Below are positions 378-21,201 of a stretch of DNA of 21,620 nt, piece after piece (positions within the stretch are counted from its first letter, which is position 1; each line of letters begins with the position of its first letter). The notes beneath the pieces are model-generated. The model was not told the origin of the DNA. It ran no database searches and saw only the letters and a list, made by a program, of their open reading frames with translations. The position numbers and the translations under genes are program-made. The stretch covers positions 1 through 21,620 of the IMG/VR virus record IMGVR_UViG_3300046692_000144; one strand, given 5' to 3'. The stretch is from a virus.

Positions 378-784
378 GCGAGTTCAAGGTAACAATTAGT
401 AGTACACGGAAATCACTCTACTATGCGGACTTAGTGTGTATCAACGAGTGCTGTACATCGGACAGCATTACGGTTTCTTGTCTTCCTGGAAGTACCGAAG
501 AGCTGACTAAAGAAACCTACGTGTGTCGTTCGTGCGGCACTTCCTGGATTGCGGAGATGCACGCAGCGAGGATTGAAAGTATTACCTCACCATCGGGGGA
601 CTTCTACGACTCAACTCATCGTTCAACCTTTGTTGAGAAGGGGTCGTTTCAGCAAATCGAAACCCCAACAGGAGTCATCAAGGCAGCTCTTGAAGAGTTC
701 GTTACTGCTATGAAAATTGGTTCGCCAACCAGGAAGGGCGAGGCTCTTGGAAGACTCGCCTTCATGGCACGAGTTGAGCTATAG
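374..784 (+). CDS. hypothetical cysteine-rich protein
   Basis: A 136-residue protein I do not recognise. The N-terminal half carries C22, C26, C27, C36 and a clear CxxC at 51-54 (CRSCG), suggesting a zinc ribbon. The C-terminal half is predicted mostly helical and ends in RVEL. Its ATG overlaps the TGA of the TraR-like gene (ATGA), so the two are probably co-translated. At its 3' end it converges with the sigma-factor gene and the stop codons of both share the palindromic hexamer at 779-784. The pairing with TraR suggests early expression, but no function can be assigned. Confidence 0.7.
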   Translation: MSEFKVTISSTRKSLYYADLVCINECCTSDSITVSCLPGSTEELTKETYVCRSCGTSWIAEMHAARIESITSPSGDFYDSTHRSTFVEKGSFQQIETPTGVIKAALEEFVTAMKIGSPTRKGEALGRLAFMARVEL

Positions 785-1546
785 CTCTACGCCATAACCT
801 GAACGCAGAGTCTCCAACGCTTCTCGTTTGTGAGCATTGACTTCATCTCGGGTAAGACCGGTGGTCTTGGAGATCTCTTTAATAGACTTCTCCAGACCAT
901 CGTCAAAACCTAGAGACATCATCAACACTTGGCGGTGAATATCGCTGAGTTCTGAAATGCGCTGATGGAGGCGCTGATCATCGATTTCATCTTCTACCTG
1001 AAACTCTATGTCCACCAGTTCGGTGTCCGACAAGTCTTCGATAAAGCAAGTGAGGAACGCAGTCTCTGAAAGCTCCCGGACGTCCTTCTCTGGATGTCCT
1101 GGGCATGCGGCTAGGATCTGCTCAAAGGTGATATCTTCATCTCCTTCTTTTAGCCTTGCTATCTTCGCAGCCAGTTGTTGTTTCCAAATAGGCAGGGCGA
1201 CAAGACGAAGCTTGGACATTTCTTTCAGGATGCGCTGGAGAATCCACCAGCCCGCATAGGTCAGAAGGCGATTGCCAGATTCGATGCTATACTTATCGAC
1301 GCCAACCATAAGACCTTCGTTACCGCTGCTGAGAAGATCCTCAAACGAAGCTGGGTAACGGCGTGCATACTTCTTCGCGGTCTTGAACACGAAGCGAAGA
1401 TTGGCCTCGATCAGACGATCACGAGCGCGTTTCTTTTGTAGAGCGGTAGACGATTCAGACTTGAAGGTAACGAGGAGAGCCTTCTCCTCTTCTTTTGTAA
1501 GAAGCGGCGTTCGGTTGATAAGGTCGTAGTAGAGGCTGGTAGACAT
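779..1546 (-). CDS. sigma-70 family RNA polymerase sigma factor
   Basis: A 255-residue sigma factor. Region 1.2-like sequence (LTKEEEKALL) is at 16-25. Region 2 is at 42-112: RDRLIEANLRFVF, then EDLLSSGNEGLMVGVDKY, then TYAGWWILQRILKEM. A short region 3 follows, with the region 4 helix-turn-helix at 196-248 (SIKEIS.., LTRDEV, ALETLR). It would direct host core polymerase to phage promoters. Aligned by eye to E. coli RpoD, Q437 is kept (Q104) but T440 is Leu (L107), the extended -10 residues H455/E458 become Trp/Gln, and the -35-contact glutamine of region 4.2 becomes Ala. It is the only minus-strand gene here. Its start codon lies inside a divergent promoter region, and it ends tail-to-tail against the preceding gene. 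Confidence 0.92.
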   Translation of the reverse strand: MSTSLYYDLINRTPLLTKEEEKALLVTFKSESSTALQKKRARDRLIEANLRFVFKTAKKYARRYPASFEDLLSSGNEGLMVGVDKYSIESGNRLLTYAGWWILQRILKEMSKLRLVALPIWKQQLAAKIARLKEGDEDITFEQILAACPGHPEKDVRELSETAFLTCFIEDLSDTELVDIEFQVEDEIDDQRLHQRISELSDIHRQVLMMSLGFDDGLEKSIKEISKTTGLTRDEVNAHKREALETLRSGYGVEL

Positions 1547-5235: not shown

Positions 5236-5238
5236 ACG

Positions 5239-5263
5239 AAGCCCCGAAAGGGGCTTTTCTTTT
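5239..5263 (+). terminator. rho-independent terminator
   Basis: AAGCCCC (5239-5245), GAAA tetraloop, GGGGCTT (5250-5256), then TTCTTTT. It ends the nuclease transcript. The T-run abuts the Shine-Dalgarno of the next gene. Confidence 0.92.
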
Positions 5264-5273
5264 GGGGGTTCAA

Positions 5274-5552
5274 ATGAGTCGAATAATACTAGCAGATTTC
5301 CTCAGCAGGGTTCAGGCGGCTGGAGGGGACTTAAGCGGATGTCTACTTACTAGCCAGGACCAACGATCTCCTCACGAGTTCGTCAGGCTAATCACTTCTA
5401 GAACCGGATATACCAGGGTCGAGGTGAAGACTGGTGGCTCTTCTCACATAGCAAAGATGATAGATAACTTAATAGTGGATTCTATTTCCATTGCTACAAG
5501 TAGCAAGCTGGTCCACAACAGCCATATGATGATACGGTTTTTAGTACGATAG
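5274..5552 (+). CDS. small paralogous protein, array I member 1
   Basis: A 92-residue protein of unknown function. Its opening (ILADFLSRVQAAGGDLSGCL) fits the pattern hxxFxxxLxxxGxxLxGxxL shared with the next three genes, pointing to gene duplication. An amphipathic helix is followed by beta-strand-like segments (RVEVKTG, SISIATS, MMIRFLV). ATG 5274 follows GGGGG at 5264-5268, five bases away. The gene starts only ten bases after the nuclease terminator. It is the most divergent of the four and is separated from the second by a hairpin at 5558-5586. Confidence 0.65.
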   Translation: MSRIILADFLSRVQAAGGDLSGCLLTSQDQRSPHEFVRLITSRTGYTRVEVKTGGSSHIAKMIDNLIVDSISIATSSKLVHNSHMMIRFLVR

Positions 5553-5557
5553 ACCAA

Positions 5558-5586
5558 TTACCAATCTTTTAGGCAGTCATTGGTAA
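5558..5586 (+). other. inverted repeat between array I members
   Basis: TTACCAAT (5558-5565) pairs with ATTGGTAA (5579-5586) around a 13-nt loop; AAGAG follows rather than a T-run. It could be an operator or an mRNA-processing or stability element. I see no clear promoter inside the 63-base gap. Confidence 0.4.
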
Positions 5587-5615
5587 AAGAGTAGTAGAGA
5601 CTAATAGGAGGCTCT

Positions 5616-5849
5616 ATGAATTTGCTTAAGTTCGAGAAGAAGATGCAGGAAAGAGGCGCTTCTCTTAACGGGTCCAATCTGACCCATGATAAAGATTCCT
5701 ATAAGGTGATCGGCGTAGATCTAGCGAATCATAAGAAAAATATGACGATTCGATACCAAGATCAGGACATCGTGATCACCATGAACAACTGGAATATTAT
5801 CGCAGTGCGATATGACATGGTTCGTGGGTTTGCCTGGGTGATGAAATGA
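5616..5849 (+). CDS. small paralogous protein, array I member 2
   Basis: A 77-residue protein starting LLKFEKKMQERGASLNGSNL, which fits the array pattern FxxxLxxxGxxLxGxxL. The centre is polar. The end, NNWNIIAVRYDMVRGFAWVM, matches the W-hydrophobic-V-x-G-hydrophobic ending of the next two members. A perfect AGGAGG at 5605-5610 lies five bases before the ATG, so it should be well translated. The next ATG overlaps its stop by four bases. Confidence 0.75.
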   Translation: MNLLKFEKKMQERGASLNGSNLTHDKDSYKVIGVDLANHKKNMTIRYQDQDIVITMNNWNIIAVRYDMVRGFAWVMK

Positions 5850-6082
5850 AATTCCAGTTGAGTAAGTTTTATCAAAAACTCCAACTAAAGGGACATACTC
5901 TAACTGGTTGGTACCTGGAGTTCGATGGGGATCTTCTTAAGGTAGTATACGATAACTCCAAGGGTTCTTTAGAGGTGATTTCCGAATCCCGTGGCAGCAA
6001 TCACCTTTTAAGAGTGACTAGCTGGCGACTGCTTCGTTGCTACCAGAAGATGAATGGCCAGAAAATACTGATGGTGGAGTGA
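5846..6082 (+). CDS. small paralogous protein, array I member 3
   Basis: A 78-residue paralogue: SKFYQKLQLKGHTLTGWYLE keeps the F-L-G-L-x-G-x-x-L signature, and TSWRLLRCYQKMNGQKILMV repeats the C-terminal block of member 2. Predicted layout is an N-terminal helix then about five strands. The ATGA overlap with member 2 indicates translational coupling. No catalytic motif or membrane segment is visible. Confidence 0.75.
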   Translation: MKFQLSKFYQKLQLKGHTLTGWYLEFDGDLLKVVYDNSKGSLEVISESRGSNHLLRVTSWRLLRCYQKMNGQKILMVE

Positions 6083-6085
6083 CGC

Positions 6086-6355
6086 ATGATTCTTTTATCG
6101 GACTTCGAAAAACGACTGAATGACAAGGGGATTGACCTTTTAGGTAACCACGTAGTCATCAACGAGTGTAAACAGTTGATACTAGAGCACCACGATTCTG
6201 GTCTACGTCTGTGGCTTAAAAGAGCCAATGGCTTTCAGGATCGACTTACTAAAAAGCGCTGGATGGTAACTAAGGTGTCTCCGGGTAAAGGCACGGCCCT
6301 GGTAGAAAGCGATGGGTTTGTTCTTCACCTAGTCATTGTGCCTGGAGGTGTCTGA
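6086..6355 (+). CDS. small paralogous protein, array I member 4
   Basis: An 89-residue paralogue: LLSDFEKRLNDKGIDLLGNH fits the array signature, and KKRWMVTKVSPGKGTALVES fits the W-h-x-V...G-h-h-V block of members 2 and 3. It is slightly longer at the C-terminus (FVLHLVIVPGG). GGAG at 6076-6079 lies six bases upstream of the ATG. It overlaps the following gene by one base (TGATG). Confidence 0.75.
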   Translation: MILLSDFEKRLNDKGIDLLGNHVVINECKQLILEHHDSGLRLWLKRANGFQDRLTKKRWMVTKVSPGKGTALVESDGFVLHLVIVPGGV

Positions 6356-6687
6356 TGAAAATACTTGAGTTTCTACAGGAATTGGTTAAGAGGGGCGGCA
6401 ATCCGAAAGAGGTGAAGATAGTAGCACCTAGTTGGAGTGGTGCTTGGAGAGATGGCGTATTTCTGGATGGAGTCGATGCCTTGAGCATTACTGTCTCCCC
6501 ATCCTTTAAGAGCCCTTCGATCCGCCTAGTAACTAGTCATCCGGTATTTGATTTCGAGGTGGACGGGTGCCACCGACTATTTGGCAAGGACTTCTTCCCC
6601 CACGTAGGAGGGAGGTCTCTGGTAAGCAAGGTTCCAACATACACAGTTCTACGTGTCATAGATCCAGTTGATAGGGTAAGAATTTAA
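6355..6687 (+). CDS. small protein, possible divergent array I/II relative
   Basis: A 110-residue protein. Its start (MKILEFLQELVKRGG) resembles the FLxxLxxK openings of the second array at 14466-16396. The rest is beta-rich (ALSITVS, SIRLVTS, YTVLRVID) and lacks the G-x-x-L-x-G core of its immediate neighbours. It may link the two arrays or be an unrelated gene with a similar N-terminal helix. The Shine-Dalgarno is GGAGG at 6343-6347. It is the last gene before the primase-helicase; no terminator separates them. Confidence 0.7.
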   Translation: MKILEFLQELVKRGGNPKEVKIVAPSWSGAWRDGVFLDGVDALSITVSPSFKSPSIRLVTSHPVFDFEVDGCHRLFGKDFFPHVGGRSLVSKVPTYTVLRVIDPVDRVRI

Positions 6688-9903: not shown

Positions 9904-9919
9904 TGGTATAAGTAAAGTA
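9904..9919 (+). promoter_or_regulatory. GGTATAAG promoter motif
   Basis: TGGTATAAG (9904-9912), four bases, then GTA (9917-9919), lying between a terminator and the next gene. No -35 hexamer is seen 15-19 bp upstream. The same core and downstream GTA recur at other intergenic sites, so this is probably a phage promoter with initiation near the GTA. Confidence 0.6.
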
Positions 9920-11423: not shown

Positions 11424-11690
11424 ATGGATTACATGATCTTCTACTGGTTTTTGCCGCTTTTCGCACTCCTCGTTATCTACAGCGTTGTAACGGAGATACA
11501 GCACAAACGTCGGGAACGTCGTATTGCGCAATGCAAGAAAGATCTTATGGACTGGCTTCTGTTCGTAGGGGTAATGATGGATTCCAATTGGAAGAACCCT
11601 AACGGGTATCCAAAAGATGTAACCAAGGAATGGTTGGCGACCATAACCGCTACTTACTTCAAGGAATTTAAAGACAAGAGGCTTAAATGA
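11424..11690 (+). CDS. single-pass membrane protein
   Basis: An 88-residue protein with one N-terminal transmembrane helix (about 4-22, MIFYWFLPLFALLVIYSVV) followed by a basic stretch (KRRERR), implying a cytoplasmic C-terminal domain of about 60 residues. That domain is helical and amphipathic (KDLMDWLLFVGVMM, KEWLATITATYFKEF). Its ATG directly follows the previous stop without a gap, and its stop overlaps the next ATG. Function unknown. Confidence 0.7.
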   Translation: MDYMIFYWFLPLFALLVIYSVVTEIQHKRRERRIAQCKKDLMDWLLFVGVMMDSNWKNPNGYPKDVTKEWLATITATYFKEFKDKRLK

Positions 11691-12109
11691 AAATCGATGC
11701 TCGTATACTCTTAGACCGGTTACTTACCGATACTAAAACTCGGGTAATCGTTAAGTTCAGGAACACTCCACACGAAGTTAGACAAATCGGTGAGCTGTAC
11801 AGTCATGCAATGTACGCCAGACTGAAAGTCGCAATACCGTCTGTTCGCTATCCTTTTGAATGTCAGGCGATACCTAACACCCTTGGATACGCCCTTCCAC
11901 AGTATGGGACTTGGTACTTGGAGGAACGAGGACTAGTCGTAGACAAAATCTGCTTCGGCGGCATCTTGGTTAAAAAGGACATAACTCTTCTACTCAGCGA
12001 CTGGAACCAGGAGGTCTATGAGCGTATCAGGGATGACGTAGACGAGGAGGAAGAGGAAGGCGCAGAGAACCTCGATATAAACGTCGATGATGAGTGGCGA
12101 AATGATTGA
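11687..12109 (+). CDS. small protein related to the array II family (acidic tail)
   Basis: A 140-residue protein with an N-terminal helix (ARILLDRLLTD), a strand (RVIVKF) and GTWYLEERGLVVDKICFGG near 84-102. The last block is clearly similar to STWYLEKGRLNVYKIAQRG in the next gene, so these two are paralogues. It has a 25-residue acidic C-terminus (DVDEEEEEGAENLD) absent from its relative, perhaps a DNA-mimicking or protein-contact tail. Start ATG overlaps the previous stop (ATGA). Confidence 0.7.
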   Translation: MKIDARILLDRLLTDTKTRVIVKFRNTPHEVRQIGELYSHAMYARLKVAIPSVRYPFECQAIPNTLGYALPQYGTWYLEERGLVVDKICFGGILVKKDITLLLSDWNQEVYERIRDDVDEEEEEGAENLDINVDDEWRND

Positions 12110-12383
12110 AGCCGTTGAGTTCTTCAGGAGATTTTTTGCGAAGCACTCCGAAGAAGTGATTGTGACGTTTGATCATGTATCGGGCATTGCGTATCGCATA
12201 AGAATCAATGATAACCAGCGTACTGAGAAGTACTTCATGCAGGCAAGTGTTACTGAGGATGATAAGAGTGAGTACTGGTCTACCTGGTACTTAGAGAAGG
12301 GAAGGTTGAATGTCTACAAGATTGCTCAGAGAGGATCTCTGGGGAAACAGAAGACCTATATTCACGTAAATAAAAGGTATTGA
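12102..12383 (+). CDS. small paralogous protein (array II family, dispersed)
   Basis: A 93-residue protein starting MIEAVEFFRRFFAKHSEEVI, like the MIELIAFLEQLMKR opening of the gene at 14466. A strand VIVTF and the WSTWYLEKGRLNVYKIAQ block shared with the preceding gene follow. The ATG at 12102 is chosen because it matches the family N-terminus and overlaps the previous stop by eight bases; an ATG at 12087 gives five extra residues but has no better ribosome site. No known domain. Confidence 0.65.
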   Translation: MIEAVEFFRRFFAKHSEEVIVTFDHVSGIAYRIRINDNQRTEKYFMQASVTEDDKSEYWSTWYLEKGRLNVYKIAQRGSLGKQKTYIHVNKRY

Positions 12384-12386
12384 AAG

Positions 12387-12659
12387 ATGATTAACGTATG
12401 CATAGTCTTTGGTGTTGTATGTGGAGTACTGGCGCTAATCATTGGTATCGCCTATATCTTCCGCACGGATGAAGTCCCAGAAATGGCCCCAGAACAGCAC
12501 GCAGACATTGCCATCGATACTCTGCTAGACTGCCTCTGGAATGACTCCGATTACAAAGGATTCAAGACACGAACGGATATCGTAAAGTGGATTACTGCTC
12601 GCCGAAGCCTGGTTCAAGAAGCGGTAAAACGAGGGCAAATCGCTCCTAAGAGAATGTAA
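12387..12659 (+). CDS. single-pass membrane protein
   Basis: A 90-residue protein with one N-terminal hydrophobic helix (about 4-24, VCIVFGVVCGVLALIIGIAY) and a 60-residue mostly helical C-terminal domain (IAIDTLLDCLWND, IVKWITARRSLVQEAVKRG). AAGG at 12373-12376 precedes the ATG. It has the same layout as the protein at 11424 without clear sequence similarity. Function unknown. Confidence 0.7.
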   Translation: MINVCIVFGVVCGVLALIIGIAYIFRTDEVPEMAPEQHADIAIDTLLDCLWNDSDYKGFKTRTDIVKWITARRSLVQEAVKRGQIAPKRM

Positions 12660-12662
12660 ACA

Positions 12663-13013
12663 ATGTACGTATGTCTCCAGAAGTTCCTGCAACGACTTGC
12701 AAAAGAGAAGGGATTGATACGAGGTATGAGCAAGGGTCCATCGTTGGTTCCTCTTGCAGTAGTTGATTTCCTTAGACCTGAGGAAAGCGATATGACGTAC
12801 TACATTAAGTATGGACGACATCTTGCGGTAATCTCTCAGCAAAACGGGTATGCGTACATCAACCCTGATCTTACCAAACACTACTCCTCTGGAGGGGCCC
12901 TGTACGGAGACTATGAAGTTGTCAGCGTGCATCCACCCTGCAAGGCGGGCAGTAAGCGCTTAGTCAGGATCGTTGCAAAACATGTTCCACAACCACAAAT
13001 AAACTGGGATTGA
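12663..13013 (+). CDS. small protein, possible array II relative
   Basis: A 116-residue protein. Its opening (VCLQKFLQRLAKEKGL) resembles the FLxxLxxK start of the array family, and a later YEVVSVHPP...LVRIVAK block resembles the YxVxxV...hhVxV ending. The middle has MTYYIKYGRHLAVISQQNGY. The relationship is weaker than for the neighbours and could be convergent. It sits three bases after the previous stop, within the operon. Confidence 0.65.
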   Translation: MYVCLQKFLQRLAKEKGLIRGMSKGPSLVPLAVVDFLRPEESDMTYYIKYGRHLAVISQQNGYAYINPDLTKHYSSGGALYGDYEVVSVHPPCKAGSKRLVRIVAKHVPQPQINWD

Positions 13014-13016
13014 ACC

Positions 13017-13676
13017 ATGTCAACTGACTTGACGCAATGCTGCGGTAGACCACCTCGTTTGATATCCAAGGCTGGATACGGTTACTCAATCGTCTGCATG
13101 GAATGTGGCTTGGGTGCTATCGGTGAAACAGCTTCACGGACGTATCAGTCCGCCACCCATGAATGGGAGGAGCTTAAGGCTTCGTGGACCAATCCTCCTC
13201 ATGGTCCGATAAAAATCATTGTCAAGGAACTGGCCGCAGCTCATGACGTACTTCGAAACACTGCTTGTGTCTTGGGTGCTGGTGGTTACAACGCTCTGGA
13301 AGTAGACGCGGCAGTGTTCCAGTCGAAGATCTCTGATGGCATCGTCATGCTGACTACGCCTATGGAGAAGATGATCGATGAAGGTCGTGCTCGTATCAAG
13401 GAGTTGGAAGCAGAAGTAGTTAGGCTTAAAGGGCTAGTTGCCAATGAGTTTGTCGAGGGCTTTGAAGTCTCTTCAGAACCAGTGCCGTTCAAGGAAGTAA
13501 CTGTGGTCGGTCTTGGCTACAAGTACACTCTTAAAAACGAGGATGGTGACGTCTTCATTGAGGACATTTTCCACGGTGGTCGGTTCAACCGTACTGGCAA
13601 GGTGTATCTTCTCAGTGAGCGGTTGAAAACCTTGTTCAAAGAACAGATGCGGGAGGAGGCTACCGATGCTCAATAA
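13017..13676 (+). CDS. Lar-like zinc-ribbon protein with coiled coil
   Basis: A 219-residue protein. The N-terminal 50 residues resemble the Lar (restriction-alleviation) zinc ribbon: CCGRPP (8-13), then VCMECGLG (26-33), then ATHEWEEL in the place of the usual A-x-x-x-W. A coiled-coil stretch follows at about 117-142 (IDEGRARIKELEAEVVRLKG). The C-terminal 75 residues are strand-rich (VTVVGLGYKYTLKNEDGDVF). Lar itself modulates host type I restriction, but most phage homologues are untested, so anti-restriction is only a suggestion. Cys pairs and overall shape are seen; the family call is by motif. It overlaps the next gene by 11 bases. Confidence 0.65.
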   Translation: MSTDLTQCCGRPPRLISKAGYGYSIVCMECGLGAIGETASRTYQSATHEWEELKASWTNPPHGPIKIIVKELAAAHDVLRNTACVLGAGGYNALEVDAAVFQSKISDGIVMLTTPMEKMIDEGRARIKELEAEVVRLKGLVANEFVEGFEVSSEPVPFKEVTVVGLGYKYTLKNEDGDVFIEDIFHGGRFNRTGKVYLLSERLKTLFKEQMREEATDAQ

Positions 13677-14393: not shown

Positions 14394-14409
14394 TGGTATA
14401 AGCGAAGTG
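14394..14409 (+). promoter_or_regulatory. GGTATAAG promoter motif
   Basis: TGGTATAAG (14394-14402), four bases, then GTG (14407-14409) in the position of the GTA seen at other sites. It begins three bases after a stop codon. Unusually, a strong terminator lies only 11 bases further on. Confidence 0.55.
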
Positions 14410-14419
14410 TAACAAAGAC

Positions 14420-14445
14420 AAAGTCAGGTATCCCCTGACTTTTTA
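14420..14445 (+). terminator. rho-independent terminator or attenuator
   Basis: AAAGTCAGG (14420-14428) and CCTGACTTT (14434-14442), 5-nt loop, with the T-run TTTTT at 14440-14444 overlapping the stem. It lies between the GGTATAAG motif and the start of array II, so it could act on both the incoming operon transcript and the new one. Confidence 0.88.
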
Positions 14446-14465: not shown

Positions 14466-14789
14466 ATGATTGAGTTAATTGCCTTTCTAGAACAACTAAT
14501 GAAACGATTCCCGGATTACAAGGAGTTCAACCGGATACAGCTAGAACTAGACAACAACTCTTATGCGCTGATCTTGGATAGTATCAAGGACGATGTCATC
14601 TACTATCACTTTCATGGAGCTAAGACTCTTTTCGAATTCAGCCCTAGAAAAATGAGCTTCTTTCGGTACATGGTAAACGACGTCTCTCAGGTATTTCTTA
14701 GCCATGATATACCATTGTTAGGCGTACGACGTCAAGGCGTACGAGTAAGCACATCTAAACACTTCGGTAAGTACACGGGAATATCATGA
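14466..14789 (+). CDS. small paralogous protein, array II member 1
   Basis: A 107-residue protein: MIELIAFLEQLMKRFPDYKE, then RIQLELDNNSYALI, then an aromatic segment and GVRRQGVRVSTSKHF near the end. It aligns over its whole length with member 2 (P-D-Y-K-E-F, L-E-L-D-N-x-S-Y, F/Y-R-Y-x-V, G-V-R-x-x-T-S-K), so these two are a recent duplication. No catalytic motif is seen. It is the first gene after the promoter-terminator pair at 14394-14445. GAGG at 14451-14454 is 11 bases from the ATG, a rather long spacing. Confidence 0.75.
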   Translation: MIELIAFLEQLMKRFPDYKEFNRIQLELDNNSYALILDSIKDDVIYYHFHGAKTLFEFSPRKMSFFRYMVNDVSQVFLSHDIPLLGVRRQGVRVSTSKHFGKYTGIS

Positions 14790-15118
14790 TTGAGTTAATG
14801 ACGTTTCTACACCAGTTAGTTAAGAAGATTCCTGACTATAAAGAGTTTGGCAGGGTATATCTGGAACTGGATAACGGGTCATATGACCTAATCATTACCC
14901 AGCTAAAAACCAACTCCATCGCTTACCGCTTCAGCAATGGTGGTAGGGCTGCCCATGACTGGAATCCAAGAGGGGCAGCTTACTACCGATATATAGTTGA
15001 CCGAGTATCAGAAGTACACCTAAACATTGATAACGATATACTGGGCCGACGACCTGGCGGAGTTCGGATACACACTTCAAAAGTCTTTTGGAAAGAGGGG
15101 TTAAAGAAACGTGATTGA
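14786..15118 (+). CDS. small paralogous protein, array II member 2
   Basis: A 110-residue paralogue of the preceding gene: MIELMTFLHQLVKKIPDYKE, LELDNGSYDLIITQL, AYRFSNGG, YYRYIVDRVSEV, GGVRIHTSKVF. Predicted fold is an N-terminal helix followed by six or so strands. The ATGA start-stop overlap points to coupled translation. Divergence is high although the genes are adjacent, suggesting fast evolution after duplication. Confidence 0.75.
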   Translation: MIELMTFLHQLVKKIPDYKEFGRVYLELDNGSYDLIITQLKTNSIAYRFSNGGRAAHDWNPRGAAYYRYIVDRVSEVHLNIDNDILGRRPGGVRIHTSKVFWKEGLKKRD

Positions 15119-15443
15119 TATAACCGAGTTCCTTCGTCGTCTTACTAAAAAGATAACAAGCCCCTCAAACATTAGTCTTATCAAAGTTGTGTTTAAGTCC
15201 AATGGTACGGAGATAAACATACGCGAAGTTGGTGACGACGGACGTATCCTATACGCGTATGGGTCAGGTACAAAAGGCCCATCAAAATCATGGACACCTC
15301 ACACAATGGTGGGGGCTAAGTACGTGATATCCCGGATCGAAGAACAACGAGTTAACAAGAGCCATATAAAGCCGATGTCCAGCCTCGTACGTCCTATTAA
15401 CAAGGCAGTGATCTACGTCGAGAAAATTGTGGAGGAACTATGA
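15111..15443 (+). CDS. small paralogous protein, array II member 3
   Basis: A 110-residue family member: MIDITEFLRRLTKKI, SLIKVVFKSNGTEI, ILYAYGSG, SWTPHTMVGAKYVISRIEEQ, AVIYVEKI. It keeps the order helix, V-x-V-x-F strand, aromatic strand, W-P loop, Y-V-I-x-x-I, final V-x-V strand. GTG start overlapping the previous stop by eight bases; GAGGGG at 15095-15100. Confidence 0.72.
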   Translation: MIDITEFLRRLTKKITSPSNISLIKVVFKSNGTEINIREVGDDGRILYAYGSGTKGPSKSWTPHTMVGAKYVISRIEEQRVNKSHIKPMSSLVRPINKAVIYVEKIVEEL

Positions 15444-15745
15444 GTATCAACGTTCAGGAGTTTTTCCGTCGCCTAGTTGATAAGCTTGGACTTGCCGAGG
15501 ACCCAAAGATCGAAAAGGTCTTTGTACAGTTCAATGGCGATACTGTAATACAACTTCTCAAGTTCCTGGGGAATGAGCAGTTCGAGTACCGATTCATCCC
15601 TGTCCATGGTGACAGGGTAAATAAGTGGTACTCCAACGGAAGCAGTACTCGTCGTTACCGAGTTGCAAGTATTAGGCGTAAAAAGGAGACGCCTGGAGTT
15701 CTAGGAGGCCGTGGTAGTCTACACATAAATCTGGAGGATGGCTGA
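15440..15745 (+). CDS. small paralogous protein, array II member 4
   Basis: A 101-residue member: INVQEFFRRLVDKLGL, IEKVFVQFNGDTVIQLLKFL, FEYRFIPVHGDRVNKW, YRVASIRRKK, GSLHINLED. It is closest to member 5 (LGLAEDP/LGLEAGDP, VFVQFNGDTVIQLLKFLG against LFIRFNQGASIRVLKYLG). ATGA overlap with the previous stop and GGAGG upstream give good coupling. Confidence 0.75.
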   Translation: MSINVQEFFRRLVDKLGLAEDPKIEKVFVQFNGDTVIQLLKFLGNEQFEYRFIPVHGDRVNKWYSNGSSTRRYRVASIRRKKETPGVLGGRGSLHINLEDG

Positions 15746-16098
15746 TGTCTAATCCTAGTGGATTTGTAGATAACGAGAATTACTTCACTACTCTTATCAA
15801 CCGCTTGGGCTTGGAAGCGGGTGACCCGGTACGTACCCTCTTCATTAGATTCAACCAAGGTGCAAGCATCAGGGTTCTCAAGTATCTTGGCGACTCTACT
15901 TTCAGCTATGTGTTCTACCCTGCCAGGGGTGAACAGGGTGAGTCAAATTGTTGGTGTTTCAAAAGGGAGGAGAACGATAACCTCTCAGTGACGAACGTGT
16001 CGAAGATGTTCAATCTGGTTCGCCCCTACGATCCGTTCTACTCCCCAAACGGTCATGAAATACTGGTAAATGTGGAGAGCATCTATGAAGATGATTGA
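15745..16098 (+). CDS. small paralogous protein, array II member 5
   Basis: A 117-residue paralogue of member 4 with a longer N-terminus: YFTTLINRLGLEAGDP, LFIRFNQGASIRVLKYLG, FSYVFYPARGEQGE, then NLSVTNVSKMFNLV and ILVNVESIY. GGAGG at 15733-15737 precedes the ATG, which overlaps the previous stop by one base. No known domain. Confidence 0.75.
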   Translation: MSNPSGFVDNENYFTTLINRLGLEAGDPVRTLFIRFNQGASIRVLKYLGDSTFSYVFYPARGEQGESNCWCFKREENDNLSVTNVSKMFNLVRPYDPFYSPNGHEILVNVESIYEDD

Positions 16099-16396
16099 TC
16101 TAAGAGAGTATCTCTTCTCTCTAGATACAGACCTTTGGAGTATGGGTCGCAAGAAGAGGCTTGAGGGGATCGTGGTGCAGCTTATCCACACCGGGAACGA
16201 GCTGCTGCCACGGGAGCTTTTCCGTAAAGACCGGAACCTTGACAACACCTACTACTACACTGTCCTGGGCATGGATGGTAATGTTAAGAGGTGGCTGATA
16301 CATAGAAATTACTGGGAGGTAGTCAATGTCTCCCGTAAGCGGTATCATGGTGGCATTAAAACATTAATCACTGCAACCAGAGTTGGGAGTGCGTAA
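16085..16396 (+). CDS. small paralogous protein, array II member 6
   Basis: A 103-residue member: KMIDLREYLFSLDT, GIVVQLIHTGNELL, YYYTVLGMDGNVKRWLIHR, YWEVVNVSRKRYHGGIKTLI. The W...YWEVVNVS...TLITA block matches the W...Y-x-V-x-x-V...h-x-V ending of its neighbours, though the overall match is the loosest in the array. Start choice: ATG 16085 has GGAG at 16074-16077 (7-base spacing). ATG 16091 would match the MIDL/MIEL family start, and ATG 16070 is also in frame. Confidence 0.68.
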   Translation: MKMIDLREYLFSLDTDLWSMGRKKRLEGIVVQLIHTGNELLPRELFRKDRNLDNTYYYTVLGMDGNVKRWLIHRNYWEVVNVSRKRYHGGIKTLITATRVGSA

Positions 16397-18513: not shown

Positions 18514-18859
18514 GTCTTTGCTTGAGAAGTACCAGGCACTGGCGGAGTACATCCAAGGGCTGGCTACCGAGATGAACTTGGCAGGAAGAAAAGCTATGCA
18601 GTATCAGCATTCTTCGACCAGTAATCTGGGAGTAGCCAGTATCTGCAACGATGTGTCCGATTCTGGGAACAAGGTTCTTCTGGAGAACAGTCTTAGCTCT
18701 GATGATTTTTCTCTCAGCAAGAGGCTGGCCCGAGCAGAGCAGTTGCTCAACGATGCATACTGCACTCACACCCTGAACAAAGACGGTCGTTACCCAATCG
18801 AAGACTACTTCAAGGAACACGGACTGACCTTTGTTCATGAAGAGGAGAAGGGCGGATGA
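18506..18859 (+). CDS. hypothetical helical protein
   Basis: A 117-residue protein, helical at the start (SLLEKYQALAEYIQGLATEM) and acidic at the end (HEEEKGG). The frame is open further upstream, but ATG 18506 has GGGAG at 18495-18499 and overlaps the previous stop by eight bases. It shares a four-base overlap with the Lar-like gene downstream, so all three genes at 17491-19209 are probably co-translated. Confidence 0.65.
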   Translation: MTKSLLEKYQALAEYIQGLATEMNLAGRKAMQYQHSSTSNLGVASICNDVSDSGNKVLLENSLSSDDFSLSKRLARAEQLLNDAYCTHTLNKDGRYPIEDYFKEHGLTFVHEEEKGG

Positions 18860-19209
18860 CTCAGAGACCGACGATTGAGGATTGTCCATTCTGCGGTCCT
18901 CATAAAAACTTTGATCGACCGATGGTCATTCAAGATGATGACTCTTTCTACTACGTGTACTGCCCTATCTGCGAAGTTACTTCTGAGCATTTCTACTTGG
19001 AAGTAAAGGCGTTAGAAACCTGGAACAAACGTGCTCCAACCGCAGGGGAACTTCACTGGAAAAACAACCATGACTGTCAGGTTGCTAAGACTAGGATCTT
19101 GATCGACCGTCCGGATATGCCCGTGGAAAGGGTCAAAGCATATAAACATATCTGCGAACTCGAACTCCGAGTAGCACTACTAGAAAAACAACTGAGTACA
19201 AAGCAATGA
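18856..19209 (+). CDS. Lar-family zinc-ribbon protein (restriction-alleviation-like)
   Basis: A 117-residue protein whose first 60 residues fit the Lar family well: CPFCG (C10, C13), VYCPICEVTSE (C36, C39) and ALETWNKRAP (52-61), the usual A-x-x-x-W-N-x-R ending. Lar of the Rac prophage reduces host type I restriction; phage homologues are common and mostly untested. The C-terminal half is a charged helix likely to form a coiled coil (YKHICELELRVALLEKQL). It closes the 17491-19209 operon and overlaps the previous gene by four bases (ATGA). Confidence 0.8.
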   Translation: MTQRPTIEDCPFCGPHKNFDRPMVIQDDDSFYYVYCPICEVTSEHFYLEVKALETWNKRAPTAGELHWKNNHDCQVAKTRILIDRPDMPVERVKAYKHICELELRVALLEKQLSTKQ

Positions 19210-20352: not shown

Positions 20353-21201
20353 ATGGCAGTAGAGGCCTTCCAGTGTGATGTAGAGAAGACGATCCGAGCT
20401 ATGGCTGCCGAGGGTCGTTCAAAGAAAGAAATTCAGGAGGCCCTTGGTGTCAACCGGAACACTTTGAAGTACATGCTGGAAGCCTTGGGGGATGTTCGCT
20501 TCCGCCATGGATCTGTCTTCGAAGTACGTGGCTTCAAGGGAACTATCGAGGAGATCTTGAGACACTTCAAACTCGATATGTGTACCTCAACGGTACACTG
20601 GCGCATGGAAAAGGGTCAGTCTCTGGAAGAAGTTTTCTTCGTACCTCCTGTGGGTGAGAGATTCACTTATAAAGGTTTCCGAGGTACCACTACTCAGATA
20701 ATCCGTCACTTCAACCTGAGCATCTCCCGGGATACTGCATTCAAGCGAATCAAACGGGGGATATCGGTGGATGAGGCTTTCTCCCCGGCACAACCCCATA
20801 CTCGTGCAGCTCATCAAAAAATCGGTCGCTACAAAGTCTACACGGTCAATGGAGTAACGGATAACCTGGCTAAGCTCCATGCCCAGTTCAAACCACCGTT
20901 AGCGGTAGAGACAATTCGTAGACTTATCCGTGCAGGTATGTCTGCTGAAGACGCCTTTAAAGAGAAGAAGGGTAAGCTTACTGTCCGGGGCTTCACTGGG
21001 TTTATTCCGGATATCCTCAAGCACTTCAAACTAGACATCTGCAAGAGTACGGTCTCTCACCGTATCACCTATTACAAATGGGATGAGGACCGTGCGTTCT
21101 TCACTCCACCAGACATCACTAGATCAAGGTACAACGAGTATGAGCGAGCAAACTGTATTCCAGCGAGCGTTGGACCTGTACACCCCTCCATTCACGTTTA
21201 A
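20353..21201 (+). CDS. DNA-binding-type protein with tandem HTH-like repeats
   Basis: A 282-residue protein. The N-terminus has a classic HTH (RSKKEIQEALGVNRNTLKYM, 22-41). Four repeats of about 40 residues follow at about 56-96, 104-144, 161-203 and 208-250, each of the form h-x-V-x-G-F-x-G-x-x-x-x-I-L-x-H-F-x-L-x-h-x-x-x-T-h-x-x-R-h-x-x-G-x-S-x-E-E-A-F. They resemble the small HTH modules found beside HNH nucleases in phages. No nuclease motif is present, so it may be a DNA-binding regulator or a nuclease remnant. Repeat 3 is the most diverged (HAQFKPPLAVETIRRLIRAG). The C-terminal 62 bases overlap the next gene. Confidence 0.8.
   Translation: MAVEAFQCDVEKTIRAMAAEGRSKKEIQEALGVNRNTLKYMLEALGDVRFRHGSVFEVRGFKGTIEEILRHFKLDMCTSTVHWRMEKGQSLEEVFFVPPVGERFTYKGFRGTTTQIIRHFNLSISRDTAFKRIKRGISVDEAFSPAQPHTRAAHQKIGRYKVYTVNGVTDNLAKLHAQFKPPLAVETIRRLIRAGMSAEDAFKEKKGKLTVRGFTGFIPDILKHFKLDICKSTVSHRITYYKWDEDRAFFTPPDITRSRYNEYERANCIPASVGPVHPSIHV

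Follow-up and report, generated by a model that had tools for sequence, protein, structure and literature searches.

Six consecutive + strand genes at one end of a phage genome (array II, positions 14466-16396) encode a single homologous protein family, with similarity beyond chance. The family extends well past this array and comprises about 30 genes, which are distributed over no fewer than six slots of the 165 kb phage, some tandem and some single, and members are also present in a sister phage, in which the slot positions are retained while the copies themselves have changed almost beyond recognition. The sequence studied, hereafter the window, consists of bases 1-21620 of a phage record of 165,460 bases (IMGVR_UViG_3300046692_000144); coordinates outside it are given as phage positions.

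The six genes of array II

Array II is made up of six ORFs, each overlapping or abutting the next: c1 (14466-14789, 107 aa), c2 (14786-15118, 110 aa), c3 (15111-15443, 110 aa, with a GTG start), c4 (15440-15745, 101 aa), c5 (15745-16098, 117 aa) and c6 (16085-16396, 103 aa). Two start codons are candidates for c6. Position 16085 offers the better Shine-Dalgarno spacing, and an ATG at 16091, giving 101 aa, offers the MID/MIE start found in copies 1-3. An earlier note on this DNA had described coupled starts, and these are indeed present, all six ORFs being intact: ATGA at 14786, GTGATTGA at 15111, ATGA at 15440, TGATG at 15745 and a 14-nt overlap at 16085. Overlapping junctions are common in the phage genome as a whole (48 of 139 adjacent + strand gene pairs, from a rough gene call), and those of array II are thus indicative of an operon and co-transcription rather than of specific co-assembly.

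The proposal that these are six copies of one gene is borne out by phmmer, shuffle tests, HMM searches and hhalign. Against a background of 513 small ORFs from the same phage genome, phmmer joins c1 to c2 (E 7e-29), c4 to c5 (E 3e-10), c2 to c3 (E 6e-5) and c1 to c3 (E 0.01). Smith-Waterman comparison against shuffled sequences gives p 2e-5 for c1-c3, 8.5e-5 for c3-c5, 7e-4 for c2-c4, 8e-4 for c3-c6 and 1e-3 for c3-c4; c3 is the hub of the array and is linked in this way to every other copy at p <= 1e-3. Links outside the pairs 1/2 and 4/5 are also found by HMM comparison, where the c3-c5 HMM has c6 (E 0.005), and after it c2, as its best matches among all the ORFs not used to build it. The most diverged copy, c6, is the weakest link in the array, yet it is supported, and the c1-c5 profile aligns with it over its full length (hhalign P 3e-4).

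One part of the earlier description has to be revised. Pairs 1/2 and 4/5 had been taken for recent duplicates, whereas c1 and c2 share 49% amino-acid identity (dN 0.47, dS saturated) and c4 and c5 share 27% (dN 0.97, dS 3.1). The duplications behind both pairs are, as judged from these values, old. The excess of dS over dN for c4/c5, together with the saturated dS of c1/c2, indicates that the copies of array II have been maintained.

The wider family in the same phage

Further tandem runs in the phage show the N-terminal pattern of array II. The slots within the window lie at 5274-6687, 11687-13013 and 14466-16396, and those beyond it at 30.0-32.1, 42.6-44.2, 52.6 and 56.6-57.2 kb. Array III (phage 30015-32130) contains eight copies that are strongly paralogous to each other by phmmer, and array IV (phage 42572-44158) contains five probable members. 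The genes of slot V occur as singles or pairs, at phage 52646 (an isolated single copy), 56558 and 56866.

Array I holds four probable members on the + strand, a1 to a4 (5274-5552, 5616-5849, 5846-6082 and 6086-6355), which are connected internally by shuffle tests (a2-a3, p 3e-4; a1-a3, p 1.5e-3) and by an a1-a3 HMM that has a4 as its first match (E 0.002). The adjoining gene a5 (6355-6687, + strand) is a probable member whose closest similarity is to array IV (phage 43192 gene, phmmer E 0.0035, z 7.8). Kinship between arrays I and II is drawn solely from the inter-array tests given below. Between arrays I and II lie three + strand genes of differing standing. The outlying member b2 (12087-12383) is linked to c4 (p 6.5e-4) and to the c1-c5 profile (hhalign P 5e-4), and is the top non-member match of the c1-c6 HMM (E 0.08). 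A probable member, b3 (12663-13013), is the top non-member match (E 9e-4) of an 18-sequence HMM built without arrays I and III and without the array IV of this phage; b1 (11687-12109), a possible to probable member, is found among the next matches of the same HMM and is linked to b2 at p 5e-3.

More generally, array genes account for 12 of the 14 next matches of the 18-sequence HMM among 1,120 ORFs. The array III HMM finds c2 (E 0.008) and c1 as its first matches beyond array III, and the array II and array III profiles, compared directly, align across 65 columns at P 3e-4, while a reversed profile yields 0.64. In a permutation test against other small + strand genes, inter-array similarity (mean z 0.76) is higher than in any of 3000 random sets (mean z 0.01); the test is partly circular and post hoc in that groups b, IV and V were chosen after motif or HMM matches. 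Much of the inter-array signal resides in the first 16 residues, and after their removal the mean z is 0.37 versus 0.02. Confined to arrays I-IV with the N-terminus removed, the test still yields a mean above the null, a value attained by 2 of the 3000 random sets, but no excess over the null in the proportion of pairs with z above 3. Among the 513 small ORFs, phmmer joins no pair across different arrays at E below 0.003. Membership of c1-c6 is firm. The case is good for array III, b2, b3 and the genes at 52646 and 56 kb, while b1 and the genes of arrays I and IV are probable members. Pairwise identity within this one genome drops to 15-25%.

Turnover in a sister phage, and searches of distant relatives

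An IMG/VR contig of 116 kb (IMGVR_UViG_3300041407_000207) represents a sister phage, with a terminase 90% identical. The contig is collinear with phage 41.9-151.4 kb; it takes in the slots of arrays IV and V and ends before arrays I-III. Family-type genes are found at all three slots covered, with copy numbers in this phage and in the sister of 5 and 3, 1 and 3, and 2 and 2. Sister genes longer than 80 aa that have a match show a median identity of 67%, and the conserved genes neighboring the slots show 63-83%. The array genes, on the same comparison, have no blastp match in the sister with the exception of one at 27%. Seven of the eight sister slot genes outscore all 30 control genes when compared with the arrays, and all counted members are intact ORFs in both phages. 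By these comparisons, c1-c6 and the sister-phage members at slots IV and V share a common ancestry, and at both slots the position is conserved, the copies turn over fast and their divergence is extreme.

Apart from this phage, the family was found in the sister phage alone. Vibrio phage D69 and Salmonella phage Arash have primases related to that of the phage (33% and 29%, respectively), and the terminases of Arash and the phage are 52% identical. Family HMMs gave no match in D69, Arash or eleven further contigs (terminase 42-53% identical), a set in which divergence leaves absence unproven. A search of bacterial genome contigs with the terminase profile found none. Four relatives that were read in detail have tandem arrays of small genes of their own, unrelated to the family as far as is visible. 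Small-paralog arrays lie at 91757-93253, 100031-101695 and 156932-159069 in relative G012, among them five membrane proteins in a row and three genes with the common N-terminus MRTRQGFVSNSSSSSF; others lie at 161146-162166 in relative G010 and at 77297-77862 in relative G003.

Searches for known relatives and comparable systems

None of c1-c6 has a match at E < 0.03 in Pfam, PHROG or NCBIfam, including any to a counter-defence family, and none has a significant match in the PDB by sequence or by fold. Searches of 50,697 phage records with c2, c4, b2 and an array III copy returned no significant match, and in single-protein scans of IMG/VR no close relative was found for c1, c4, c5, an array III copy, the primase or the exonuclease. 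Two candidate matches were discarded. That of b2 to phrog_11152 (E 6e-4) was set aside because the profile also responds in 8 of 14 control genomes, and that of c4 to a 432-aa gene at 126334 (E 8e-4) is taken to be a chance similarity inside a glutathionylspermidine synthase, an enzyme that the phage encodes. Literature searches found no paper describing the array family. As judged by sequence comparison, no library tried describes the family. The earlier suggestion of an undescribed phage protein family therefore holds as regards a family without library match, and was too narrow in confining it to array II, as other slots and the sister phage hold members.

While the protein family is new, the kind of phenomenon, a phage-specific paralog expansion, is known. 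Bacillus phage G has a lineage-specific expansion of about 35 zinc-ribbon proteins (PMC7824862), and resembles the present case in having tens of copies of one small protein within a single large-phage lineage. The phage G proteins are zinc ribbons, however, whereas the array proteins have few cysteines (a mean of 0.2-1.3 per array protein) and a predicted helix-plus-strands fold. The arrays can also be likened, as clusters of small genes, to the host-takeover module of Bacillus phage SPO1, whose small early genes are presumed to target host processes. Most of the SPO1 genes have no kinship with one another, in contrast to the array genes, which are paralogs.

Predicted fold, charge and conserved residues

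Family proteins are about 77-117 residues long. The AlphaFold2 model of c3, built from a six-row alignment (pLDDT 76), has one helix (residues 4-15) and six strands (21-28, 34-40, 46-49, 58-61, 69-81 and 96-107). The array III model, built from eight rows (pLDDT 88), has a helix at 4-12 and strands at 21-25, 28-35, 39-43, 49-53, 60-68 and 78-85. Compared by the order of their elements, arrays II and III share a predicted topology, and the family probably folds as an amphipathic helix at the N-terminus that precedes a small barrel of about six strands. A near-invariant Trp occurs in 17 of 18 aligned rows, and the same rows contain no conserved polar residues of catalytic type. Net charge is positive in 23 of 30 members, with a median of +4 as against 0 or -1 in other small + strand genes (p 1e-3); acidic members are c5 (-6), the one acidic copy of array II, b1 (-9) and the 56558 gene (-8).

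Foldseek searches of the PDB with the c3 and array III models gave no significant match (best E 0.3-0.5). The non-significant likeness is in strand arrangement, to SH3/Sm-type barrels (MscS beta domain, Pif1, Tudor and CooT), with TM at most 0.45 among the matches listed and no sequence match; the family differs from these barrels in having an N-terminal helix plus six predicted strands. The closest predicted fold to array III is the BFVD model A0A516M170, an 85-residue viral protein (TM 0.55 over 71 columns, E 0.04, 10% identity).

Genomic context and transcription signals

Terminase, head-protease-like and RNA polymerase genes are on the - strand, and the arrays sit among + strand replication and accessory genes. 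The parts of a multi-subunit RNA polymerase are encoded at phage 128451-130271 and 136694-140050 (- strand; beta' C-terminal domain, and beta fused to the start of beta'), and a phage sigma factor gene lies at window 779-1546. A Lar-type restriction-alleviation gene is located 2.5 kb downstream of array II (18856-19209; PF14354, above cut-off), and a weaker Lar-like zinc ribbon is found at window 13017-13676. Two NAD/ADP-ribose handling genes are present. One, two genes downstream of array III (phage 32862-33392), encodes a macro-domain protein, with a match right at the Pfam cut-off; the other encodes a nicotinamide phosphoribosyltransferase (phage 49628-51427). At 20353-21201 the window also encodes a possible DNA-binding repeat protein of 282 aa, in which motifs resembling GF.GT..[EQ]I[LI]RHF.L recur and whose N-terminus weakly matches a helix-turn-helix.

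A promoter-like motif copy, GGTATAAGCGAAGTGTAA, is found on the + strand at 14395-14412, 71 nt upstream of c1. Its core, GGTATAA[GC], is followed by a conserved ..A..GTG/GTA..GAA stretch and occurs 49 times on the + strand of the whole phage and twice on the - strand, mostly just upstream of + strand genes. The + strand copies within the window are at 9905, 10290, 10540, 10854, 14395, 17065 and 19239, and about 40 more are found elsewhere in the phage. The same one-strand bias (31-37 to 1-2) is seen in the sister phage and in relatives G009, G010 and G003 (terminase about 52% identical). Given this recurrence, with the same bias, in the sister and these three distant relatives, array II is probably transcribed from a phage-specific promoter. 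As a sequence pattern, GGTATAA[GC] is a probable phage-specific promoter and may be recognized by the RNA polymerase or sigma factor that the phage itself encodes. A generic sigma-70 promoter scan gave no excess (10 found versus 15.4 expected), a null result that led to the GGTATAAG motif.

A terminator-like hairpin (14420-14442, + strand) lies between the promoter-like motif and c1 and is a possible leader attenuator. The leaders of arrays I, III, IV and the 56.5 kb pair (window 5238-5270; phage 29970-30012, 42555-42590 and 56520-56562) have a GC hairpin, then TTTTCTTTT, and immediately thereafter a Shine-Dalgarno sequence and ATG, with no promoter motif between hairpin and ATG. Such terminator-like elements abutting the start codons of arrays suggest read-through or attenuation.

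Possible function of the family

The members of the family may be rapidly diversifying small binders, each copy engaging a different host factor in takeover or counter-defence, a reading that is given a little less than an even chance. Under such a mechanism, array II would be one cluster of a phage-lineage-specific family of some 30 paralogs, in which local tandem duplication and rapid divergence would keep refilling fixed genomic slots within the part of the genome that holds replication and accessory genes. The array would be read from the phage-specific GGTATAAG promoter 71 nt upstream, and each copy would bind a different, fast-changing host macromolecule. We infer the barrel, the binding role, the timing of expression and the class of target. 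The extremely fast change between sister viruses is expected of proteins that handle rapidly changing host targets. Also counted in favor of binders are the homology of c1-c6, the topology shared by arrays II and III, the inter-array similarity seen in the HMM ranking and the permutation test, the turnover of slots, the Trp without a catalytic set, the basic charge, the nearby Lar-type gene, the upstream motif and the maintenance indicated by dN/dS. Several points weigh against it. Weak constraint can also yield high divergence, basic charge is equally suited to nucleic-acid binding, the sister contig extends over slots IV and V and not over array II, and the inter-array permutation test is partly post hoc with a signal largely in the first 16 residues.

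In the strongest competing explanation, the proteins would be small SH3/Sm-like barrels that bind phage or host RNA or DNA in order to coat, chaperone or regulate it, with copies differing in sequence preference rather than in protein target. The median charge of +4 (p 1e-3) and the barrels among the weak fold matches of array III are consistent with this; those matches are not significant, however, acidic copies exist (c5, b1 and 56558) and no conserved basic or aromatic surface set is seen beyond the one Trp. Nucleic-acid binding is considered rather unlikely. It is improbable that the copies are largely neutral products of recombination-driven tandem duplication and decay, without selected function. 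Fast divergence and changing copy number would fit such a process, but no counted member in either phage has a disrupted ORF, a fold-like pattern and one Trp persist even where identity is down to 15-25%, and dN is well below dS for c4/c5. Equally improbable is the proposition that only array II forms a family and that the likeness of arrays I, III and IV reflects convergence of small helix-plus-strand proteins. The concentration of inter-array signal in the first 16 residues and the failure of phmmer to join different arrays below E 0.003 speak for convergence, while the high ranks of array genes with the 18-sequence HMM, the reversed-profile controls, the sister-phage slot genes that exceed controls and the identical predicted topology of arrays II and III speak for one family. 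Least probable of all is the hetero-oligomer suggested in the earlier note, its copies being co-produced by a single operon. The coupled starts and the shared operon would accord with it; overlaps are nevertheless frequent throughout the genome, copy number at the same slot differs between the sister phages, and a single copy stands isolated at 52646.

Returning to the binder reading, a broader and more tentative proposal is that the new scaffold serves as an evolvable binder kit of one lineage, with about 30 fast-remade paralogs that may provide each phage with its own set of inhibitors or adaptors. An identity of 15-25% within a genome and few close database relatives show how such families escape annotation. 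If the reading as binders of host factors is true, one undescribed small scaffold would explain about 30 phage genes of unassigned function, and the slot-wise turnover between sister phages would offer a testable route to the host targets that drive it.
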